From the IMG/VR virus record IMGVR_UViG_3300042544_000912, positions 62,001 through 126,000 of that record: a stretch of 64,000 nucleotides of DNA. The stretch is one strand, 5' to 3'. Position numbers and translations under genes: made by a program. How positions within the stretch are numbered: the stretch's first letter is position 1; each line of letters opens with the position of its first letter. The DNA comes from a virus. The notes below the pieces were generated by a model that did not search any database, was not told the DNA's origin, and saw only the letters and a program-made list of their open reading frames with translations. Shown piece by piece: positions 17,781 through 62,634 of the stretch.

Positions 17781-18024
17781 CATTAGTGACTTAATAAATA
17801 ACATTGAAAGCGGCACTTTTGCAGATGCCGAACAAGTTTTTAATGATATTATGGACCTTAAAGCAGGCGAACATTTAGATCAAATGCGACAAGATATGGC
17901 AGCCGGAATTTATAACGACACGCCAGAAGATAATGATGTTGAAGATTTCGACCACTATGAAATCACCGACGAAAATGACCATGGCGATTTAGAAGAAATA
18001 GAGGACACCGATGACGACCTATAA
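17764..18024 (+). CDS. gp67: gp67-like prohead core protein
   Basis: 86 residues. The N-terminal helix (ISDLINNIESGTFADAEQVF, then MDLKAGEHLDQMRQDMAAGI) followed by a strongly acidic tail is the form of T4-like gp67, a prohead core component removed by gp21. Position between gp20 and gp21 matches T4. The start is one of two adjacent ATGs, at 17764 or 17767. Confidence 0.75.
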   Translation: MMDNSNISDLINNIESGTFADAEQVFNDIMDLKAGEHLDQMRQDMAAGIYNDTPEDNDVEDFDHYEITDENDHGDLEEIEDTDDDL

Positions 18025-18421
18025 GCAACTTCAAGAGCGCATCAACATGGCGAAAGCCAAGATGGGTGATGTCATCAAGGACTTCCAGGACTCCGATGCT
18101 CCTCAATTCAAAGGCAAGTCGGACGAAAAGCGCCGCCAGATGGCGATTGCAGCTAAGTTGTCCAACGAAGAAGTTGAACAGACCGACGAAGGTTATCACG
18201 TAATGCGTAATGGTCAATCAATCAGTTATCATCAAGATAAAGAATCGGCTGACAAGCGGGCAAGCGCCTCTAATATGCGTGGCGGTTCTAATGCTACCGT
18301 TGTTAAAGATGAACGCGGCGTTAAAGAAGAACTAAAGGGCGACCAACATAAGATTGACGCCAATAAGAATGGTAAAGTTGACGGGCACGATTTTAAACTT
18401 CTTCGCGCTAAGAAGAAATAA
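18011..18421 (+). CDS. Prohead-core-like protein with DANKNGK motif (gp68 position)
   Basis: A 136-residue, charged, mostly helical protein at the position of T4 gp68. The N-terminus MTTYKQLQERINMAKAKMGD is reminiscent of T4 internal and core protein starts. Residues about 60-90 form a separate small module (EGYHVMRNGQSISYHQDKES). The C-terminus, KIDANKNGKVDGHDFKLLRA, is an EF-hand-like DxNxxG loop widely used as a terminal module in T4-like head proteins. A core role is inferred from position and composition. Confidence 0.6.
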   Translation: MTTYKQLQERINMAKAKMGDVIKDFQDSDAPQFKGKSDEKRRQMAIAAKLSNEEVEQTDEGYHVMRNGQSISYHQDKESADKRASASNMRGGSNATVVKDERGVKEELKGDQHKIDANKNGKVDGHDFKLLRAKKK

Positions 18422-18437: not shown

Positions 18438-18815
18438 ATGGCAACGAAAACGGTACTAAAGTTAACACAAGTTCACGGCGTGGTCAAAGTGCGCGGGACT
18501 GGGAACGCCACTATTGCCCTTGCTACCGACCTAAAGAAGTCATCTGAAACACAGTCTTCACCCCTGGTGAATATTCGCACACTTCACTGGGCGTTGTCAG
18601 TAGGTTCTACTGCTACTATTACTAGAGACAGCGAAGTTCTATATTATCTTTCCGGTTCAGGCAAGATGGAATTTATGGGATGGTCAGATAACGAAGAAAA
18701 CGGATCAGATATTGTTGTAGATTTTTCGTCAGGAACTGGCGCAGTAGTTCTAGAACTTGCTAAGGTTTCCGGTTATGGCTCACAACAACATCAAAATCAA
18801 GGAGACCTAGGCTAA
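18438..18815 (+). CDS. Conserved virion/head-operon protein, unknown function
   Basis: A 125-residue predicted beta-sandwich (TVLKLTQVHGVVKVRGTGNA, SVGSTATITRDSEVLYYLSG, FMGWSDNEENGSDIVVDFSS) with no catalytic motif. It sits between the core gene and the gp21 protease gene inside the late head operon, which suggests a head decoration or structural role. The stop overlaps the gp21 ATG (TAATG). Confidence 0.55.
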   Translation: MATKTVLKLTQVHGVVKVRGTGNATIALATDLKKSSETQSSPLVNIRTLHWALSVGSTATITRDSEVLYYLSGSGKMEFMGWSDNEENGSDIVVDFSSGTGAVVLELAKVSGYGSQQHQNQGDLG

Positions 18816-19471
18816 TGAAACTTATTACCGAAGTCAACGACCAAGTTCGTTATATCACAGAAGAGAAAGCTGGAAAGAAATCTTTATACATTGAGGGTGT
18901 CTTTCTACAATCAAATCTAAAGAACCGCAATGGACGTATGTATCCGGCTGAAATCATGGAGAAAGAGATTTCTCGTTACATGAAAGAAGCAGTTGAAAAC
19001 AACAGAGCATTCGGTGAACTAGGACACCCAGATGGGCCGTCGATTAATCTGGATCGTGTATCGCATATCGTAACAGAACTTCGTCGTGACGGCGATAACT
19101 GGATAGGTAAAGCGAAACTGACTGAAACACCAATGGGCAACATCGCTCGTGGTCTAATTGAGTCTGGTGGTCAACTTGGCGTTTCGTCAAGAGGCCTCGG
19201 TACCTTGAAGGAAAACAGAGACGGCGTCCAAGTTGTGCAAGATGACTTTCATCTTGCAACAGCAGCCGACATCGTAGCTGATCCTTCTGCACCAGATGCT
19301 TTTGTTCGTGGCATCATGGAAAATAAAGAATGGGTAGTTGTGAATGGTGTTTGGACCGAACAGCATTGCGATATGTCCAAGAAGTATATTAAGAAAGCAA
19401 GTAAGAAACAACTCGAAGAAGCAAAACTGCATGTCTTTGAACGTTTCTTACATCATCTTTCTTCAAAGTAA
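18815..19471 (+). CDS. gp21: gp21 prohead maturation protease
   Basis: 218 residues (T4: 212). It is a serine protease of the herpesvirus-assemblin-like fold. His71 in GELGHPDG and Ser124/125 in LGVSSRGLG match the catalytic His and Ser motifs, and the N-terminal GVFLQSNLKNRNGRMYP region is typical. It cleaves scaffold, core and capsid proteins at (L/I)xE sites. Several proteins in this window carry such sites (see the findings). Confidence 0.94.
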   Translation: MKLITEVNDQVRYITEEKAGKKSLYIEGVFLQSNLKNRNGRMYPAEIMEKEISRYMKEAVENNRAFGELGHPDGPSINLDRVSHIVTELRRDGDNWIGKAKLTETPMGNIARGLIESGGQLGVSSRGLGTLKENRDGVQVVQDDFHLATAADIVADPSAPDAFVRGIMENKEWVVVNGVWTEQHCDMSKKYIKKASKKQLEEAKLHVFERFLHHLSSK

Positions 19472-19514: not shown

Positions 19515-20672
19515 ATGAGTGTAGAAAACAAAATCAGAGAGTTGCTAACTAAGAAGCAACTATCCGAAGAAGTTCTAGACGAAAAGGTTGCTGGAGACAC
19601 AACCAACCCTAAGCAGGGTTCGTCAGAAGATGCCGCAATCGAGGGCAAAATGGGCGCATCAAAGGGCAAGGATACTTCTATCGCAGCTAAGGTAGCTGGC
19701 GATCAGACGCAACCTCGTCAAGGTGATTCCCAAGACGCTCCAATTTCCAGCGAACGTGATGAAGAAACTGATAATCCAGGTGCTAAGGAAGCTGCTCCAG
19801 TTTCCAGCAACCAGGCTACACTTTCTCAGGGTGGTGCAGGTAATGCACCTAACTTCACGACCCATAGTGACCCAACTTCGGTTGTAAACATGGCATCGTC
19901 AAAGGGTAATGTTCATCAAGAAGAAACAGAGGAAGATGGCGAAATGATTGAAGAAGATTTCACTGCCGATCTCGCTACCCTCTTTGATGGTAACGAAGAC
20001 CTATCAGAAGAATTCCGTGGCAAAGCATCGTCGCTCTTTGAAGCAATGGTAACTGCCCGTGTAGCTAATCAAATTCAAACCATCGAGGAAGGCCTCATCT
20101 CAGAAGCCGCAGAATTGATGGAAGAGTTCAAGGCTGACTTGACCGAGAAGGTCGATTCTTATCTTAACTATGTAATTGAAAAGTGGGTTGAAGACAACGC
20201 ACTTGCTGTTGAAAATGGTCTCCGCACAGACATCGCGGAATCATTCATCAATGGCATGAAGAACCTGTTCGCAGAACATTATATTGATGTTCCCGAAGAG
20301 AAATATGATGTGCTTGGTGAAATGCAAGCCCAACTAGAAGAAGTATCTGCTAAGTTGGACGAGGCAATTGCTGCAAATGTAGAACTGCACAATAACAATG
20401 TAGACCTCATGAAGGAAGGCGTTTTCGCCGTCGTTGCTGAGGACCTTGCAAAGACCGATGCTGAAAAGTTTAAGTCGTTGGTAGCTGATGTAGAATTCGA
20501 GAACGCAGACATTTTTGAAGAAAAGCTAAACGTCATCAAGGAAAATTATTTCCCTGCTTTTAAGTCGACCATTGTGGAAGACAAGCTAGAAGATGAAGGC
20601 GTTGAAGTCTTAGACGAATCGACAGTCAGTAAGTATGTCCAAGCACTGGATAAGATTGCTGCTCAAAAGTAA
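19515..20672 (+). CDS. gp22: gp22 scaffolding protein (prohead core)
   Basis: 385 residues, longer than T4 gp22 (269). Residues 1-125 contain a duplicated unit (VAGDTTNPKQGSSEDA and VAGDQTQPRQGDSQDA) with low complexity. From about residue 140 the protein is long-helical and acidic, as expected for the scaffold (EEFRGKASSLFEAMVTARVA, EKVDSYLNYVIEKWVEDNAL). LDE near residues 21-23 and IEE near 142 are candidate gp21 sites. It builds the prohead core and is degraded on maturation. Confidence 0.9.
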   Translation: MSVENKIRELLTKKQLSEEVLDEKVAGDTTNPKQGSSEDAAIEGKMGASKGKDTSIAAKVAGDQTQPRQGDSQDAPISSERDEETDNPGAKEAAPVSSNQATLSQGGAGNAPNFTTHSDPTSVVNMASSKGNVHQEETEEDGEMIEEDFTADLATLFDGNEDLSEEFRGKASSLFEAMVTARVANQIQTIEEGLISEAAELMEEFKADLTEKVDSYLNYVIEKWVEDNALAVENGLRTDIAESFINGMKNLFAEHYIDVPEEKYDVLGEMQAQLEEVSAKLDEAIAANVELHNNNVDLMKEGVFAVVAEDLAKTDAEKFKSLVADVEFENADIFEEKLNVIKENYFPAFKSTIVEDKLEDEGVEVLDESTVSKYVQALDKIAAQK

Positions 20673-20715: not shown

Positions 20716-22008
20716 ATGTTTCTTTCAGAACAACTACAAAAGAAGTGGGAACCTGTTCTAAATCACGGCGGTCTCGGCGAGATTAAGGACAACTACCGTC
20801 GCGCAGTTACAGCCGTCGTTCTTGAAAACCAAGAAAAGGCCCTTCGCGAAGAAAAGTCTGCACTTTTCGAAGACGCTCCAGCAAATAACATTGCTGGTTC
20901 GGGTGCATCAAACATCGACCGTTATGACCCAATTCTCATCTCGCTCGTTCGTCGCGCTCTTCCTAACCTAATGGCTTATGACGTAGCTGGCGTTCAGCCG
21001 ATGACTGGCCCAACTGGCTTGATCTTCGCTATGAAGTCAAACTACAGCACACAAGACGGCACAGAAGCTCTCTTCAACGAAGCTGATACAGACTTCTCGG
21101 GTACTGGTACCCACGATGGTTCGAACCCAGTTGACGGTACCTACACAACTGGTACTGGCTTGGCTACTTCTGCGGCAGAACGTCTCGGCGCAGGCGGCGA
21201 AGGTGACGGCGATTTCGGCGAAATGGCATTCAGCATCGAAAAGACAACTGTTACTGCTAAGACACGCGCTCTAAAGGCAGAATACACAGTTGAACTGGCA
21301 CAGGATCTTAAGGCTATTCACGGTCTTGATGCTGAATCAGAACTTTCGAATATTCTTTCGCAAGAAATTCTAAACGAAATCAACCGCGAAGTTATCCGCA
21401 CAATCTACAAGGTTGCTAAGACAGGCGCTGCTTCAACAGCAACAGCTGGTACTTTCGACCTTGACGTTGACTCGAACGGTCGTTGGAGCGTTGAGCGTTT
21501 CAAGGGTCTTCTGTTCAACATCGAACGTGACGCTAACGTAATCGCACAAGATACCCGTCGTGGTAAGGGTAACTTCATCATCTGTTCGTCAGATGTTGCG
21601 GCTGCTCTAGCTATGGCTGGTGTTCTTGACACTGGTCGCGCCCTACAAGGTTCGCCAACTCTTGAGTCGGACGACACAGGCAACACCTTCGTTGGTACAA
21701 TCGGTGGTAAGAAGGTTTACATCGACCCTTACTCAGCTAACACAGGCGCTGCTAGCCAGTTCTACGTTGTTGGTTATAAGGGCGCTACAGCATATGATGC
21801 TGGTCTCTTCTATTGCCCATACGTTCCACTACAAATGGTTCGTGCTATCGACCCTAACAGCTTCCAGCCAAAGATTGGCTTCAAGACACGTTACGGCATG
21901 ATTGCTAACCCATACGTAACACAGTCGAACGGCACAACTGACGGTGATACATTCACTGCCAACCGCAACCAATACTATCGTCGCGTTAAGGTTACTAACC
22001 TTATGTAA
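20716..22008 (+). CDS. gp23: gp23 major capsid protein
   Basis: 430 residues (T4: 521), HK97 fold. Key segments are EPVLNHGGLGEIKDNYRRAV, DPILISLVRRALPNLMAYDV, GVQPMTGPTGLIFAMKS, and ALKAEYTVELAQDLKAIHGL. The N-terminal prohead peptide is probably cut by gp21 after LFE near residue 53, before DAPANNIAG. The shorter length suggests that the T4 insertion domain is reduced. GC-richer, highly biased codons (CGT, ATC, GGT) mark it as the most highly expressed gene. Confidence 0.96.
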   Translation: MFLSEQLQKKWEPVLNHGGLGEIKDNYRRAVTAVVLENQEKALREEKSALFEDAPANNIAGSGASNIDRYDPILISLVRRALPNLMAYDVAGVQPMTGPTGLIFAMKSNYSTQDGTEALFNEADTDFSGTGTHDGSNPVDGTYTTGTGLATSAAERLGAGGEGDGDFGEMAFSIEKTTVTAKTRALKAEYTVELAQDLKAIHGLDAESELSNILSQEILNEINREVIRTIYKVAKTGAASTATAGTFDLDVDSNGRWSVERFKGLLFNIERDANVIAQDTRRGKGNFIICSSDVAAALAMAGVLDTGRALQGSPTLESDDTGNTFVGTIGGKKVYIDPYSANTGAASQFYVVGYKGATAYDAGLFYCPYVPLQMVRAIDPNSFQPKIGFKTRYGMIANPYVTQSNGTTDGDTFTANRNQYYRRVKVTNLM

Positions 22009-31570: not shown

Positions 31571-32176
31571 ATGATTAGTTTTAAAGAGTTTATAAGTGAG
31601 TCGCAAGACGGTGCCGGATTAACTATCTGGGACATTGATGAAACTCTATTTCGCACAACTGCCCGCGTCCATATCATCAAAGATGGTAAGATTATCAAGA
31701 CGTTAGGTAACAAGCAATACAATACATATAATTTACAGCCGGGTGAGTCCTTCGACTTTAGCGAGTTTAGGGACGCCCGGCATTTTCAATCTACCAGCGA
31801 ACCAATCGCAAGAGCGATTCGCAAACTGATTGCAATGCACAAGAACATCAAGGCCAAGGGTAGCAAGATGGTTGTTATCACAGCCCGCTCCGACTTTGAT
31901 GACCGTGATATTTTTCTAGATACATTTCGTAAGCAAGGCATTGATATCGATGATATCCATGTCCATCGTGCTGGCAATCTTGGCGCCATGCCCTCTGCGG
32001 CTGCTAAGAAAATCTATATCAAACAATACCTTGACACTGGTAAATATACTCGCGCCCGTCTCTTTGATGACGCGGTGTCCAATCTCCAGATGTTCAAGGA
32101 CTTAGCGAATGAATACCCTAATGTGAAGTTTGAGCCGTTCTTGGCTCACGAAGATGGAACAATGACTCGTTTTTAA
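31571..32176 (+). CDS. HAD-family phosphatase with capsid-targeting-like N-terminus
   Basis: 201 residues. HAD motif I is D21-I-D23-E-T-L, motif II is VVITARSDFDD and the late acidic motif is RLFDDAVSN. The HAD domain resembles phosphatase domains related to polynucleotide 3-prime phosphatases, so a nucleic-acid or nucleotide substrate is possible. Residues 1-10 (MISFKEFISE, followed by S) match the form of T4 internal-protein capsid-targeting tags cut by gp21 after (L/I)xE. It has its own promoter and no SD. Confidence 0.8.
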   Translation: MISFKEFISESQDGAGLTIWDIDETLFRTTARVHIIKDGKIIKTLGNKQYNTYNLQPGESFDFSEFRDARHFQSTSEPIARAIRKLIAMHKNIKAKGSKMVVITARSDFDDRDIFLDTFRKQGIDIDDIHVHRAGNLGAMPSAAAKKIYIKQYLDTGKYTRARLFDDAVSNLQMFKDLANEYPNVKFEPFLAHEDGTMTRF

Positions 32177-48143: not shown

Positions 48144-49280
48144 ATGTTATCTTTCACACAATACATTACAGAGGCAACACACACCGGTGGTATTGCTCAT
48201 ATTGAGCATCCCTCTGATAGATCATTTGATAGTCAAGACGCTGCACACCACGCATTGGAAACTCTGCGTGGTGTTGCGCATGGGAAAACTCCTATCACTC
48301 GTAAGATTGATGATAGAATGTCCTTTCATGCTATTCGAACAGCGGACGGTAAGATAGGTGTAAAGTATAAGGGCGCGGGTTCTCACTATAACTATTCTGC
48401 CTCAGATATTGAAAAGCAGCACGGCCATAAACCATATCTTGTCGGTCCTCTAAAGGCACTTCATGCCCATCTGGGTAAAGTTCTTCCTGAAAAGCCCGGT
48501 GAATATCAGGGCGGATATATGAGTGAACCTTCTGGAAGATCGGAATACTCCTCGCATATCTCACACACTCCTAACACAATTGAATATCGTGCAACTGCGG
48601 GTAGTGAAGAAGCGAAGAAGTTAAAGAGGTCTAAGGTCAGTGCTACTATTCATACGGAGCTAAAGGGTCCAGAAAGAACTGCACATCCTATCACGGACAT
48701 GTCGCACTTTCAATCACATCCCGATGTTCATATGGTACAACATCTGGTATCAGATGAAGAGCGCAAACTTCCTGCCGCTGTTAGGTCAAAAGCCACAGAG
48801 CATTTAGATGCCGCCGAGAAGTTAATGAAGGGTCATACATATGACCATCTATCTGGCCATGAAATCCATCTAAGAACTTACATTAATAGAACAGTCACGA
48901 GTGGTGAAAAACCTTCTGTTGAAGGATACAGAAAGCATTTGCAGACGGCACACCAGAAACTAATAGATGCCGTCAAGACTCCAGCCGCTAAAGAGCGCAA
49001 GACTGCTACTATGAATACTCATCTATCTCAGGTAGATGCAAATAAAAAACAATTCGAAAGATCATTCCAAATTCACCATCACCTACAACAGGCGACAAAT
49101 CATCTTGCTAGAGGATTAGATCGTGCCGGTGGTGGTGGGTTCTCGACACATATTAATGGTGCAGCCGCTGGCGGCGAAGGCTATGTCGCTCATGGCCTTA
49201 AAGTTGTTGACCGCGAAGGCTTCTCGAAAGCTAACCGAGAGCGTAGTGCAATTCTAAGAGCAAGTAGAGGTAAGAAATGA
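48144..49280 (+). CDS. Ligase-fold nucleotidyltransferase-like protein with capsid-targeting-like tag
   Basis: 378 residues. The N-terminus MLSFTQYITE-A looks like a T4 internal-protein tag with a gp21 site. Residues 30-125 follow the pattern of a T4-like phage family resembling the ATP-grasp/DNA-ligase-like nucleotidyltransferase core: ITRKIDDRMSF (motif I position, K54; the usual KWDG is altered to KIDD), IGVKYKG, NYSASDIEKQHGHKPYLVGP and GEYQGGYM. The C-terminal half is helical and Lys/His-rich. It could have lost catalysis. ATGA overlap with the next gene. Confidence 0.65.
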   Translation: MLSFTQYITEATHTGGIAHIEHPSDRSFDSQDAAHHALETLRGVAHGKTPITRKIDDRMSFHAIRTADGKIGVKYKGAGSHYNYSASDIEKQHGHKPYLVGPLKALHAHLGKVLPEKPGEYQGGYMSEPSGRSEYSSHISHTPNTIEYRATAGSEEAKKLKRSKVSATIHTELKGPERTAHPITDMSHFQSHPDVHMVQHLVSDEERKLPAAVRSKATEHLDAAEKLMKGHTYDHLSGHEIHLRTYINRTVTSGEKPSVEGYRKHLQTAHQKLIDAVKTPAAKERKTATMNTHLSQVDANKKQFERSFQIHHHLQQATNHLARGLDRAGGGGFSTHINGAAAGGEGYVAHGLKVVDREGFSKANRERSAILRASRGKK

Positions 49281-49885
49281 GCGAAGTCCACCATCATATC
49301 ACGCAAGGTAGAATGAACCCAATCACAGTGGGTCATGAAGCTGTTGTGAACCAAGTTCGTAACACTGCCGGTTCACATGGACATACCATCGTTCTTACTG
49401 GCACACATGATGCTAAGAAGAATCCTTTGACGCCTGAACAGAAGTTGAAACATGCTAAGAGGGCATTTCCGGGTGCGAATGTTCGTCTGCTAGACAAAGA
49501 ACATCCAACCCTTCTTCATCAACTGTCAAGACTTCATAGCGAAGGTGTTACGCACTTACACTTGCATGTTGGCTCAGACCGCGCACATGAATTCCATGCA
49601 TTGACACACAAGTATAACGGCAAAGAAGGTCGTCACGGTTACTACAACTTTAAGAAGATTACCATCCATACCGTTGGTAAAGAACGTTCCGATGCTGACA
49701 CCGGTGTAGCTGGTGCTTCTGGCACAAAGATGCGCCACCATGCAGCCGCTGGTAACGAAAAAGAATTTCATAAGATGGCACCAAGTGCGATGTCCACGAA
49801 GCATAAGAGCGAACTCTATAAAGATGTTCGCCGTGGTATGGGTCTTCACGAGGCGTTGTCCTTCAAGAAATTCCTAGGAATCTAA
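49277..49885 (+). CDS. Cytidylyltransferase-fold (NMNAT-like) protein
   Basis: 202 residues. GRMNPITVGHE (11-21) is the (T/H)xGH nucleotide-binding motif of nicotinamide-nucleotide adenylyltransferase-like enzymes. HLHVGSDRAHEF (96-106) and ASGTKMR (147-153), the ISSTxxR equivalent, follow. The C-terminus, LHEALSFKKFLGI, contains a possible gp21 site (LHE-A) and a SFKKFL motif like the N-terminal tags of other proteins. It probably forms a functional pair with the upstream protein; the substrate may be NMN, a pyrophosphoryl nucleotide or unknown. Confidence 0.78.
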   Translation: MSEVHHHITQGRMNPITVGHEAVVNQVRNTAGSHGHTIVLTGTHDAKKNPLTPEQKLKHAKRAFPGANVRLLDKEHPTLLHQLSRLHSEGVTHLHLHVGSDRAHEFHALTHKYNGKEGRHGYYNFKKITIHTVGKERSDADTGVAGASGTKMRHHAAAGNEKEFHKMAPSAMSTKHKSELYKDVRRGMGLHEALSFKKFLGI

Positions 49886-50705: not shown

Positions 50706-52622
50706 ATGGCTAATATTATTGAAAAAGCGAAGGCGAGACTGAAAGAGGCTCGTGGTTCTGCATACACGCTGTATCACAAATCGTATACAGATGCAATCAA
50801 TCATGCACTATCACACCATCAAAAGTCTGGTCTTCATGTAAGTGACGATGATAGATTCCAACATGTGGGTGTTGGCTCAAAGAAGCCAAGCGAAGGTAAT
50901 ACCACTTCGGTGAGTATGCCAGCTACGCATACTAGTGGCAAGAAGCACATGATTCACGTCCAAGTATTCAACAAGGGTGGCACACACCCATATGAATTGA
51001 ATACCTATTCGAGTGGCATGGGTCGTCAAGTTAAAGAAGACGCCGAGCATGTAAACTGTGGTACTCCAGAATGTTGCGGCGAATGCACTCCACCGATCGA
51101 AGAAGCATACGGCATGTGGAAGGTAGACTTTCCTAAGCAACATGCTGGTAAAGCTGTTGCGGCTGGCTCAGTCCATGTTAAGGCGCAGAACACCGCTCAT
51201 GCACATAAGGTTGCAGCAAAGAGAGTCGGTGTTGACCACACTGTATTCAAATCAAAGGTAACTAAGTCTTCAATTCTTCCAGAAGAGCGCGGCGAAGACT
51301 CTAAGGGTCACTACCGCGCAACAGAAGATGGTGCTGGTTTAACTCGTAAGGGTGCTAAAGCCATGGGCATTAAGACAGCCGTTACAACTCCTCCTAGCAA
51401 GCTAGACCCTAAGGGTGAAGCTGCTGGTCGTCGCAGGTCATTCTGCGCCCGTATGGGTGGCATGAAAGGTCCTATGAAGGATGAGAAGGGTCGCCCAACT
51501 CGCAAAGCTATGTCACTTCGTCGCTGGAATTGCAACGAAGAACTAGGTAAAGAAAACGAATGGGGTAGCCCAGGTCTTCGTAAGAAGTTTGCTGCTATGA
51601 CACCAGGACAAGAAGGACTAGCGGCTGATAATATTCCAGCAATGAATCCATTTTCTGGTGATGCTATCCAAGAACAACAACTTGACGAAATCTCGGCCCT
51701 AGGTGCCAAGAAGCGTTCTGAATTTGCTGCCAAACTACAAAAGACACTTGCCGACCCGAAAAAAATCGCAAAGGCCAAGAAAGATATTGCAAAGAAAAAG
51801 GCAGTCCAGAAAGCAGAAGAACCTAAGCATCTTGTTATGCAACTTCGCAAAGCAACTTCGATTGGCTCCAAGGTTAAGTTCTATGACGGTGCAGAACACC
51901 ACGTAGCCCCTAACCATGTAGAGAAGTTCAATGATCGCTATCATTCATTGAAGTCTTCAATCGAAAAGGAAAGCCTAGTCAAGCGCGCCCACAAATCACA
52001 TGCCGATTTCATGAGAGCCATCTCAGAAGAAACCATGGGTCAGACAATGGGACCTTGCACTGACAATATCTCACCTGCAAATTATCCTTCACCATATCAA
52101 CTATCACCTCTACCTGGTTTAGAGGACATGAATGCTGACAATGAGGCAAATCAATACACCGAGGCTGACTTGGCTGCAATTGAGGCTGATGTCACAAATG
52201 AAATTGAATCTTCTTCATGGCAAGACCTGAGCAAGTATTATGATGCCGAAGACGATGAAGACGAAGATGAAAACGAAGAAGAGTTAGATGAAGCCATCAC
52301 TCCTCAGGGTCGTCTAAAGAAAAAGTTTGCTGCAATGCGTAACAAGACGCGCCGTAACCTTGCTAAGAACATGGCAATGAAGCGTATCGCTACACCCGAT
52401 GTAATTAAGGGTCGCTCAATTCGTGCCGCTCGTAGAATGGTTTACAAGCGCATTCTTCGTAACCGCGACCCATCTTCTGTATCAGCCTCTGAAAAGGCAC
52501 GTATCGAAGCACAGGTAAAGCGTATGGCACCAATGGTATCAAGAATTTCTATTCGTCTACAACAAAGCGAAAGAAAGCGTGACCAAGCCCGTGTAACAAA
52601 CGCAAGAACAAAGAAGAAATAA
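50706..52622 (+). CDS. Large modular virion/internal protein with gp21-type sites
   Basis: 638 residues, basic, made of modules joined by acidic linkers. The N-terminal 14 residues end in LKE-A. Further (L/I)xE sites are IEE-A near 133, LDE-I near 327 and LDE-A near 529. The module between (GLTRKGAKAMGIKTAVTTPP, then RRRSFCARMGGMKGPMKDEK, LRRWNC) is a conserved T4-like phage domain. The last module is strongly basic (RLKKKFAAMRNKTRRNLAKN). It is probably packaged in the head and cut into DNA-binding peptides. Late promoter upstream. Confidence 0.7.
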   Translation: MANIIEKAKARLKEARGSAYTLYHKSYTDAINHALSHHQKSGLHVSDDDRFQHVGVGSKKPSEGNTTSVSMPATHTSGKKHMIHVQVFNKGGTHPYELNTYSSGMGRQVKEDAEHVNCGTPECCGECTPPIEEAYGMWKVDFPKQHAGKAVAAGSVHVKAQNTAHAHKVAAKRVGVDHTVFKSKVTKSSILPEERGEDSKGHYRATEDGAGLTRKGAKAMGIKTAVTTPPSKLDPKGEAAGRRRSFCARMGGMKGPMKDEKGRPTRKAMSLRRWNCNEELGKENEWGSPGLRKKFAAMTPGQEGLAADNIPAMNPFSGDAIQEQQLDEISALGAKKRSEFAAKLQKTLADPKKIAKAKKDIAKKKAVQKAEEPKHLVMQLRKATSIGSKVKFYDGAEHHVAPNHVEKFNDRYHSLKSSIEKESLVKRAHKSHADFMRAISEETMGQTMGPCTDNISPANYPSPYQLSPLPGLEDMNADNEANQYTEADLAAIEADVTNEIESSSWQDLSKYYDAEDDEDEDENEEELDEAITPQGRLKKKFAAMRNKTRRNLAKNMAMKRIATPDVIKGRSIRAARRMVYKRILRNRDPSSVSASEKARIEAQVKRMAPMVSRISIRLQQSERKRDQARVTNARTKKK

Positions 52623-52623
52623 T

Positions 52624-53061
52624 ATGGATGAGTTGAATACTGCCCTTAAAATTGTGATGGCAAATACATATGCAATGTATTTTAAAGCACATGGCTTTCA
52701 CTGGAACGTAGAAGGTAAAGACTTCTCACAATACCACAGATTCTTTAGTAAATTATACGAAGAACTATTTGATGCTGTAGATACCGTTGCGGAACAAATT
52801 AGAGCTTTGGATGAATATGCGCCATATAATATGACAGAACTTGCTTCTATTACTACTATCAAAGAATCTAATATCTATGGTGTAGATGTATCTGGTATGT
52901 TAGCCGACCTTAATGACGCAAACGCATCTGTTATTGAAGCACTTAATTCGGCGCATAAATTGGCGGAAGCAGAAAATAATAGAGGTCTATTGAACCTACT
53001 CGAAGAGAGATTAGATGTTCATGCAAAACACGGTTGGATGATCCGTGCATCCTCTAAGTGA
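52624..53061 (+). CDS. Dps-like ferritin-fold protein
   Basis: 145 residues. AMYFKAHGFHWNVEGKDFSQ, then YHRFFSKLYEELFDAVDTVA and EQIRALDEYAP match the Dps/ferritin helix with iron-ligand His and Asp/Glu positions. The C-terminal LEERLDVHAKHGWMIRASS is typical of Dps. Dps oligomers bind DNA and oxidise iron. It is encoded between two late virion polyproteins, so it may be packaged or protect DNA in the infected cell. Confidence 0.82.
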   Translation: MDELNTALKIVMANTYAMYFKAHGFHWNVEGKDFSQYHRFFSKLYEELFDAVDTVAEQIRALDEYAPYNMTELASITTIKESNIYGVDVSGMLADLNDANASVIEALNSAHKLAEAENNRGLLNLLEERLDVHAKHGWMIRASSK

Positions 53062-53067
53062 TAAATA
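53060..53067 (+). promoter_or_regulatory. Late-promoter variant fused to a stop codon
   Basis: GATAAATA, one mismatch to TATAAATA, overlaps the TGA of the Dps-like gene and lies 20 bases before ATG 53088. The same TGATAAATA arrangement occurs at 5425. Confidence 0.5.
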
Positions 53068-53087
53068 TAGAGGATAAGGAGATACTA

Positions 53088-54482
53088 ATGTCACTCGAAC
53101 AAACAATTAAAGACACTGTAATGGCAGAGTCAGTAGATTTGGACATGCGTTTGCAGCAACTAGTTCGTGCTGGACTAATGCCATCGAATACTATTCCTCT
53201 ATTGCGCAAAGCTATTACTAAGATACAAGGTGGTTATCCACTTCAAGGCGCCGAGCGCGATGTCATGGCAAACTTCTTAAATTCCATGATGTTCATCGTT
53301 CTGGGTGATGATTCTATCTTTAATAAGGCCAGAGTTGGTGCTAAATCGTATGCAACCGAAGCTAAAGAGAAGCAAGAGTATGACTATGAAGGTGACATGG
53401 CTATGTCCCAACTAAAGTCAATCATTGCTAACTCGCAACGTATGCATGATTCGATGAGCGAAGATACAAATCTTCCTGAGTGGGTTCAATCAAAGATTAC
53501 TCTAGCAGAAGATTACATCTCAACCGCAGCAAACTATCTTCAAAGCGAAATGAATGAAGGTAAGCGCGGTCTCTGGGATAACATTCATGCCAAGCGTGAG
53601 AGAATTAAAGCTGGGTCAGGTGAGCGTATGCGTAAGCCTGGTTCAGAGGGTGCACCTAGTGCCGCAGACTTGAAAAATTCTCGCACGGAAGAAGTCGAAT
53701 TGATCGGTGAAGTAAACGCAAATCAAATTAAAAAAGATCTCGATTCTGGAATGTCACATGATGCTGTTATAGGAAAACATGCAAATAAAAGAACAACTAA
53801 CACTGACGCAATTCGCAAGGTTATCAAGCAACACGCTTGGGATAAGCGAATGAAGAAAGAAGAAGTTGAACTGGATGAAGCAACATATTTTGTTCACACC
53901 GCTAATAATGCACATCATGTCAACAAAAAAATTCCAACCGGAAAAAAAGATGCGATGGGGCAGGCATTGATGACATCGAAGGTTGTCAAGTCGTTTCCTT
54001 ATGGAGACACCCAATCAAAGCAAACATCTCCTGACCAGCACAAGGCTGCACATGCTCATGCTAAAAAACTGAATGCCAGTATGAAAGAGGGCGTCGAAAC
54101 AATCGATGAAATCTCTTCTGATATGGCGTATCGCTATCTAAAAGGAAAGCGTGAAAGAGACTATGATATTAGTCCAGATGGCAAATCGAGCAAATTGAAG
54201 AAACCAATGACGTATGCTAAAATGAATAAAGACGCGAAGAGTTCTATGCGGGCCCTCAGAACAATTGAGAAGGCTAAGAAAGCCAATGAAGAAAAAGAAT
54301 CTCGCCGCGGCGAAGCACGGGCTGATATCGCTGCCATCACACAGATGAATGAGTCTTATAAGACCACATTTAATGCAGCACTTACACAGTATGGCATCAA
54401 GTCTCCCTCGGAACTTGATGAAGAAAAGAGAAAAGAATTTTTTAATTTCGTAGATCAAAACTATAAACAGGGAGACAATTAA
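53088..54482 (+). CDS. Second modular virion/internal protein with gp21-type sites
   Basis: 464 residues from ATG 53088 (AAGGAGA five bases upstream); an earlier GTG lies in the promoter. The N-terminal 14 residues end in MAE-S. Modules: a helical domain to about 165, a conserved phage domain GLWDNIHAKRERIKAGSGER, then small basic modules separated by ELDE-A near 264 and TIDE-I near 341. The architecture parallels the protein at 50706. It is likely to be processed in the prohead. Its stop overlaps the next gene's ATG. Confidence 0.68.
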   Translation: MSLEQTIKDTVMAESVDLDMRLQQLVRAGLMPSNTIPLLRKAITKIQGGYPLQGAERDVMANFLNSMMFIVLGDDSIFNKARVGAKSYATEAKEKQEYDYEGDMAMSQLKSIIANSQRMHDSMSEDTNLPEWVQSKITLAEDYISTAANYLQSEMNEGKRGLWDNIHAKRERIKAGSGERMRKPGSEGAPSAADLKNSRTEEVELIGEVNANQIKKDLDSGMSHDAVIGKHANKRTTNTDAIRKVIKQHAWDKRMKKEEVELDEATYFVHTANNAHHVNKKIPTGKKDAMGQALMTSKVVKSFPYGDTQSKQTSPDQHKAAHAHAKKLNASMKEGVETIDEISSDMAYRYLKGKRERDYDISPDGKSSKLKKPMTYAKMNKDAKSSMRALRTIEKAKKANEEKESRRGEARADIAAITQMNESYKTTFNAALTQYGIKSPSELDEEKRKEFFNFVDQNYKQGDN

Positions 54483-61788: not shown

Positions 61789-62634
61789 ATGAAAGTTCTA
61801 GTTACCGGTGCAACCGGCTATATTGGTAGTCATCTGGTCAAGAAGTTGGCAGAAGGCGGCCATGATGTTTTTGCAACAGATTTTAATCTGAAACAGAATG
61901 ACATTTCGAAGTATATCGTAGGTGACGTAATTCCATGGGATATCAGAATTCCTACGTTTATCGGAAACTATGATGCCATCGTTCATCTGGCTGCATTGAC
62001 GATGGTATCACGTTCTGTAACCATGCCTATTCCTTATTATAAGACAAATCTTTTCGGTACTCAAACCGTTCTAGATGCCACAAGAACAGATAATTTTATT
62101 TACTGTAGCACAGGTTCTGCATTTAATCCTGGTAGTAGTCCATATGCAGGAAGTAAACGAGCCGGTGAAGACTTAGTTACATTACTTCCGTCTTATAGTA
62201 TTGCTAGATTTTATAATGTCAGTGGTAACGACGGTTTCGACAAATTCGATGATAGTCACTATCACTTAATTCGCAAACTGGCCGCAGTTGCTAATGGTCT
62301 ATATCCAGAAATCGGTATCTATGGCACTGATTATGATACTAGAGATGGTACTACTATTCGTAACTATACGCATATTACAGATATTGTAGATTCTCTCTAT
62401 AGAATAGTAGAGAATGGTCCAACAAATAATGTAGAATGTCTGGGTAGCACTACTGGGAGTTCTGTGTTAGAAGTTGTATCTGCCATGGAAAATGTTATTG
62501 ACAAACCCATCAATAAAGTGTATTGTGATAGAAGACCTGGAGAAGTAGTGGTTTCTGTTCTACCAGAGGTAAGCAAGTTTTTCACTGAAACTAAATCGTT
62601 AGAAGATATTTGTAAATCTGCTTTGGAGTATTAA
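61789..62634 (+). CDS. NAD-dependent sugar epimerase/dehydratase (GalE-like)
   Basis: 281 residues, extended SDR fold. NAD-binding GATGYIG (7-13); the catalytic triad region has CSTGS and Tyr119-x3-Lys123 in SPYAGSKRAGE. The C-terminal part ends with RRPGEVVVSVLPEVSKFFTE, typical of UDP-sugar epimerases. It probably makes activated sugars for the glycosyltransferases of the window. AT-rich, like the GT genes. Confidence 0.88.
   Translation: MKVLVTGATGYIGSHLVKKLAEGGHDVFATDFNLKQNDISKYIVGDVIPWDIRIPTFIGNYDAIVHLAALTMVSRSVTMPIPYYKTNLFGTQTVLDATRTDNFIYCSTGSAFNPGSSPYAGSKRAGEDLVTLLPSYSIARFYNVSGNDGFDKFDDSHYHLIRKLAAVANGLYPEIGIYGTDYDTRDGTTIRNYTHITDIVDSLYRIVENGPTNNVECLGSTTGSSVLEVVSAMENVIDKPINKVYCDRRPGEVVVSVLPEVSKFFTETKSLEDICKSALEY

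Follow-up and report, generated by a model that had tools for sequence, protein, structure and literature searches.

Candidate cassette polyproteins of the prohead core in a T4-like virus

Three cassette genes in a T4-like genome

A 64,000-nucleotide stretch of viral DNA (the window; positions 62,001 to 126,000 of IMG/VR record IMGVR_UViG_3300042544_000912) forms part of the 130,898-bp record of a T4-like virus and contains three genes, here called A, B and C, whose products are chains of small cassettes joined at [L/I/V/M]-x-E sites, which approximate the cleavage rule of the T4 prohead protease gp21. Judged from their sequences and those of relatives, they are most probably prohead-core polyproteins that would be targeted to the core and cut by gp21 into internal head peptides. 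The window reads gp17, gp18, gp19, gp20, a gp67-like open reading frame (ORF; 17764), gene C (18011), gp21, gp22 and gp23, followed further along by a DUF6267 gene (48144), a cytidylyltransferase gene (49277), gene A (50706), a Dps/ferritin-like gene (52624) and gene B (53088); the labels gp18, gp19 and gp67-like were assigned by reading sequence and gene order. Genes A, B and C with their cassettes, and the gp21, gp22, gp23, DUF6267 and cytidylyltransferase genes, all lie on the plus strand.

Gene A (50706-52622) encodes 638 residues and is defined by its ORF, by the cassette architecture of its relatives and by a Pfam match to DUF6321 (PF19846; 47.8 bits against a cut-off of 28.5). Its leader, MANIIEKAKARLKE (50706-50747), ends at ARLKE14/A, where the slash marks the predicted cut; relatives have ARLAE/K, ARLKE/A or TAVTE/A. 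Cassette 1 (YHKSYTDA; 50748-51038), which is beta-rich in the structural model, ends at VKE111, and in the relative L095 it is a single gene behind MKDFKEYLEEDFNVVE. It is followed by an acidic, cysteine-rich spacer ending at IEE133 (51039-51104; net charge -6, low model confidence), by cassette 2 (AYGMWKV; 51105-51284; isoelectric point (pI) 10.2), which ends at LPE193, and by cassette 3 (51285-51674; Pfam and site reading), which contains DUF6321 at residues 209-274 and ends at IQE323. The acidic linker QQLDE328 (51675-51689) leads into cassette 4 (ISALGAKK; 51690-52028; pI 10.1), which ends at ISE441. An acidic segment (residues 442-529; 52029-52292; net -26, much of it of low model confidence) runs to LDE529, beyond which lies the C-terminal cassette (52293-52619; net +28, pI 12), related to a single 123-residue gene in Pelagibacter phage HTVC008M.

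Gene B (53088-54482; 464 residues, from its ORF, with an in-frame GTG at 53058) has the same construction. Its leader MSLEQTIKDTVMAE (53088-53129) ends at VMAE14/S. An acidic cassette running from AKEKQEYDY to QSEMNE (residues 92-157; 53361-53558; net -8) is 62% identical over 61 residues to a sequence in S-WAM2, and it is followed by a GLW cassette, GKRGLWDNIHAKR to E208 (53559-53711), of which single-gene copies exist in T7-like and T4-like phages. Site reading then delimits the cassettes VNANQIKK to VELDE264 (53712-53879) and ATYFVHT to MKE334 (53880-54089) and the acidic linker GVETIDE341 (54090-54110). The next cassette, ISSDMAYRYLKGK to MNE422 (54111-54353), recurs in the C-type protein of L160 that adjoins gp21, and comparison of relatives marks the remainder (54354-54479) as a constant C-terminal domain with the pattern SYKxxFxxAL.

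A first-pass annotation made from the window's letters had proposed 14-residue leaders ending in LKE-A and MAE-S, together with sites near residues 133, 327 and 529 of A and at 264 and 341 of B. The leaders are as described, and the sites lie at PPIEE133/A, QQLDE328/I (328 rather than 327), EELDE529/A, VELDE264/A and TIDE341/I. Beyond these, sites of the same form occur at residues 111, 193, 323 and 441 of A and 157, 334 and 422 of B, with less canonical ones at 91 (ATE) and 208 (IGE) of B. The same annotation's picture of mostly basic modules with acidic linkers fits most cassettes but not A 442-529 and B 92-157, which are strongly acidic.

Gene C (18011-18421), absent from the first-pass annotation, is a third cassette polyprotein with the leader MTTYKQLQE/R. 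It lies between the portal gene gp20 and gp21, in the gp67/gp68 position, and its relatives range from 88 to 528 residues with exchanged cassettes. Gene C ends in an EF-hand/dockerin-like motif, LKGDQHKIDANKNGKVDGHDF (18329-18418), which recurs in relatives and scores below Pfam cut-offs. Cassettes are common to A and B, to B and C, and to A and C, and are also swapped between phages. Specifically, relatives of A and B keep constant end domains and exchange the cassettes between them, and B proteins whose N-termini are 97-100% identical have as little as 9% and as much as 83% of their middle 6-mers in common, often less than 40%.

The cognate protease is encoded in the same genome. The gp21 gene (18815-19471) matches Peptidase_S77 (PF03420, 139.9 bits) and the PHROG head maturation protease family (2e-79), and the same family was matched in 15 of 20 cassette-bearing records, the five others being three small phages and two shorter IMG/VR records. 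In T4, gp21 cuts after L/I-x-E and reduces gp22 and other core proteins to several fragments; replacing the P1 glutamate by aspartate prevents the processing of IPIII (PMC9026906). The scaffold gp22 of the window (19515-20672; T4_CASP, PF25623, 205 bits) carries EVLDE/K and EVLDE/S, as the first-pass annotation had noted of its VLDE form, and the major capsid protein gp23 (20716-22008; PF07068) has a predicted cleavage at LFE/D. Relatives of gp23 have LFE before T, A or S, or LSE/A, ITE/A or IME/A at the expected N-terminal cut, and thus keep the same rule.

Conservation of the junctions

Within the window, raw motif counts are weak evidence. The strict motif occurs six times in B against 1.8 expected from composition shuffles (p=0.007), and the excess over chance lies in position and conservation. 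These were assessed in 142 loci gathered by two scans of viral contigs, with a breakpoint test on 116 non-redundant cassette proteins. At 13% of the starts and 12% of the ends of homology, the P1 residue of an aliphatic-x-E motif falls at exactly offset 0, against 2% for random positions, so that homology breakpoints lie on this motif about six times as often as random positions do. Among six P3 classes and five P1 residues, aliphatic-x-E was the most enriched near breakpoints (2.6-fold), followed by N/Q/H-x-E (2.2-fold), with the others between 0.5- and 1.5-fold.

At matching junctions, glutamate at P1 and an aliphatic residue at P3 persist in 12/12, 5/5, 10/11, 12/12, 8/9 and 10/12 distinct contexts while P2, P4 and P5 vary. 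The sequence before the ISA of ISALGAKK is QQLDE, EDLHE, EQINE, ETINE or EALNE, and that before the [AG]ITP of the C-terminal cassette of A is ELDE, DLDE, AIDE, DIAE or EMSE, with [LIM]xE in 12 of 12 contexts. All 12 variants of the B leader likewise place aliphatic-x-E before S or A (MAE, IAE, MTE, LSE, LQE, MNE), and V and M are found at P3 beside L and I. A scan of 871 position families, unseeded by any motif, found glutamate in 84 of the 123 families with an invariant P1 and variable P2 and P4, against a background of 8.5%; the families are overlapping, not independent ones. The linkers are kept as protein rather than as DNA, with 40 distinct DNA sequences among 47 linkers and ATC, ATT, CTT, GTC, GTT, CTC, GTA and CTA all serving as P3 codons. 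A lack of conservation of the ELDE-type linkers had been named in advance as grounds for abandoning the polyprotein idea; the [LI]xE junctions are conserved in relatives.

Leaders, single-gene cassettes and virion proteins

The T4 internal protein IPIII begins with the leader MKTYQEFIAE/A. In T4-like relatives, the cassettes found in the polyproteins also exist as genes of their own, each preceded by a capsid-targeting leader of this T4 type that ends at the same boundary: MKSFKEFLEE/ARGEDSKGHYR, MIGFKEFITE/RGEDSKGHF, MLSFKQFITE/AAVDGKGHKSS and MKSFKDHLEE/GGLWDNIH, the last of these preceding the GLW cassette of B. Like T4 IPI, IPII and IPIII, these single-gene cassettes and the DUF6267 protein share a 10-residue leader with F or Y at positions 4 and 7 and I/L-x-E at positions 8-10; the key positions of the T4 capsid-targeting sequence (CTS) are 4, 7, 8 and 10 (PMC9026906).

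In phages that lack the protease, most of them T7-like, the GLW and DUF6321 cassettes take the form of bare, strongly basic ORFs, usually beside head genes. The search that matched Peptidase_S77 in most cassette-bearing records found it in none of 17 small, mostly T7-like phage records, and [LIM]xE occurs in none of the 26 recognised cassette ORFs from 16 such records. The sole VxE among them, VLE in S-B28, belongs to an unrelated N-terminal extension and precedes the DUF6321 core by about 60 residues; L243 has a further, divergent DUF6321-like ORF that is outside the count of 26 and also has no site. Examples are MAKRGLYANIHAKRKRI (49 residues) and an 81-residue DUF6321 ORF between the scaffold and the capsid gene of HTVC168P; cassette ORFs have similar neighbours in Jormungand, HTVC200P, CRP-804 and HTVC109P and lie on the scaffold side in S-RIP2, DSL-LC07, S-CBP4 and S-TIP37. 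The position is not uniform: the cassettes of P-SCSP1c follow the capsid gene, and DSL-LC05, CRP-810 and C75C1 differ. Limnohabitans phage DC33 (L149, PQ492659.1) is filed under Inoviridae; its 39-kb genome and a 567-residue ORF resembling a T7-like head-tail connector suggest that it is a tailed phage.

A scan of the window for the CTS matched only at 18011, 31571 and 48144. The match at 48144 is the N-terminus of the DUF6267 protein (48144-49280), MLSFTQYITE/A, which makes this protein a predicted fellow substrate. So is the cytidylyltransferase (49277-49885), whose tail, GLHE/ALSFKKFLGI, looks like a CTS placed C-terminally; 28 of 30 distinct tails among its relatives have [LIV]xE before the F..F motif. 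The protein at 31571-32176, HAD/polynucleotide-kinase-like, starts with the canonical T4-type CTS MISFKEFISE/S and is therefore possibly packaged in the head; few homologs of it were found, and the CTS is mostly missing in them. A cytidylyltransferase is fused in one ORF to DUF6321 in L126 (4891-6258) and L137 (4246-6258) and to an A-type basic domain in L126 and L139 (3835-6525). In these fusion ORFs [LIVM]xE separates the parts, which suggests that polyproteins may include enzymes too. The Dps/ferritin-like gene (52624-53061) is present in all 67 loci holding both A and B and, by position, lies between them in 66.

Published virion data exist for a relative, S-CREM2, whose virion proteome includes gp154, gp155, gp156 and gp160 (PMC10665884). 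Read from the genome, gp154 is a cytidylyltransferase starting MKNFSSFLTE/A, and gp160 is an [LIV]xE-linked cassette chain in a syntenic position between cytidylyltransferase and primase. Virions of S-SM1 also contained a putative cytidylyltransferase (PMC3037559).

Proposed processing in the head and its meaning

The available data are best explained by a model in which the A, B and C precursors would enter the scaffolding core during head assembly, with leaders that end in aliphatic-x-E (x-Q-E in C) and cassettes joined by acidic linkers with like sites. By cutting after each [L/I/V/M]-x-E, gp21 would remove the leader and free the cassettes; since many junctions carry tandem sites (for example VKE/EVEQVDE/), the acidic linkers could themselves be excised. 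What remains alongside the DNA in the head would be mostly basic peptides, which may be destined for delivery to the host. Under this proposal, cassettes are freely swappable and the set changes fast because each carries its own cut site. The first-pass annotation had suggested that the prohead protease liberates internal DNA-binding peptides. The release is well supported by the conserved [LI]xE junctions, the exchange with the prohead-core locus, the leader-bearing and bare single genes and the S-CREM2 virion protein, but DNA binding is suggested only by charge, and several cassettes are acidic. The charge of the cassettes would suit a role in neutralising DNA, and the T4 internal proteins offer a precedent for delivery into the host. 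A possible but tentative extension is a polyprotein delivery system in aquatic T4-like phages, in which three loci hold rapidly exchanged sets of small effector or DNA-binding cassettes that gp21 would release in the head and that would be injected alongside the DNA, one chain thereby delivering many peptides that act against the host or condense the genome.

Several observations weigh against processing by gp21. No cleavage product of A, B or C has been observed, and for S-CREM2 gp160 the coverage of 13.1% does not distinguish cut from uncut protein (PMC10665884), the authors of that study warning that co-purification may account for some of its detections (PMC10665884). The canonical T4 CTS is absent from A and B, in that MANIIEKAKARLKE and MSLEQTIKDTVMAE have no F/Y at positions 4 and 7. 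An aliphatic P3 is missing at some junctions (EEVEQTDE in C, SEMNEE before KMPF, SYATE91 in B), and the strict motif count in A alone, 4 against 1.7 by shuffles, is not significant (p=0.09). Peptidase_S77 went unmatched in two IMG/VR records that bear modules (87 and 94 kb), which are possibly fragments. AlphaFold2 models are of low overall confidence (A: pLDDT, the predicted local distance difference test, 68 and pTM, the predicted template modelling score, 0.25; B: 66 and 0.29), and although cassettes are confident and the gaps near most sites are not, the A328 and B422 sites sit within confident helices.

Other explanations account for part of this evidence. A, B and C may be core scaffolds of the gp67/gp68 type that gp21 shreds and whose fragments nearly all exit, serving core size and assembly only, with nothing delivered. 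The gp67/gp68 position of C, the removal of most T4 core fragments (PMC9026906) and the same cassettes beside scaffold genes in most Autographiviridae records fetched speak for this, but strongly basic cassettes are kept as single genes even in protease-less phages, the single-gene leader type is the mark of retained internal proteins in T4, and S-CREM2 gp160 is found in mature virions (PMC10665884), which leaves this account unlikely. It is more improbable still that A and B are uncleaved modular structural proteins in which glutamate-rich linkers act as hinges or recombination joints and [LI]xE arises by chance or as a helix cap. The acidic, mostly low-confidence linkers and the insignificant count in A would suit such proteins, but the fixed P1 and P3 amid changing P2, P4 and P5, the siteless bare copies in protease-less phages and the single-gene leaders stopping at the same boundary would not. 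Least credible is that linkers are conserved as recombination hot spots that drive shuffling, with no protease reading them: cassettes do turn over fast between phages whose B N-termini are 98-99% identical, but linker DNA and P3 codons vary, and single-gene leaders keep the site without linkers. A chance motif, a DNA-level hot spot and an uncleaved modular protein were each rejected as the main explanation.

Each single element of this model is known from T4, namely the gp21 rule, multiply cut core proteins, the CTS and hypervariable internal proteins. T4 internal proteins include diverse defence proteins, and their hypervariable payloads share only the constant targeting sequence (PMC3012670), whereas here many payloads are strung together in a single chain, each set off from the next by a cut site, and the A and B leaders are non-canonical. 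T4 gp22, gp67 and gp68 belong to the core proteins, which gp21 reduces to several pieces (PMC9026906), and C shares the gp67/gp68 position, but A, B and C differ in their cassette architecture, exchange with distant loci and basic payloads. In phiKZ and SPN3US, proteins of the head and of ejection are cut after glutamate at multiple places by a diverged homologue of gp21 (PMC10052503, PMC9026906); propeptides are removed there, whereas the junctions here are repeated between exchangeable cassettes. The polyvalent proteins of Iyer et al. 2017 (PMC5512222) are also multi-domain phage polypeptides, likened to RNA-virus polyproteins, but embed peptidases and enzymes, whereas Pfam finds no peptidase or enzymatic domain in A or B and the protease would act in trans.

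Database comparisons assigned no function. Sequence searches of the PDB gave no match for A, B or the DUF6267 protein, and no fold search matched a PDB entry significantly. Matches in BFVD (E <= 0.001) were mostly unnamed or uncharacterized viral proteins, apart from one named as cytidyltransferase-like and one as an EF-hand protein, and Pfam hits in cassette-rich relatives stayed below cut-off except for DUF6321 in L147. In the open-licence papers searched, no paper on DUF6321 and no cassette polyprotein cut by a prohead protease were found; relative to those papers, exchangeable-cassette polyproteins cut at each joint, with single-gene counterparts that have or lack the site, would be new.

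If this model is true, large 'hypothetical' proteins of aquatic T4-like phages would become predictable sets of head peptides, and [LI]xE junctions together with CTS leaders or tails would provide a simple rule for finding head-packaged proteins, one that is checkable against existing virion mass-spectrometry data. Tailed phages would then use exchangeable-cassette polyproteins in the manner of animal RNA viruses.

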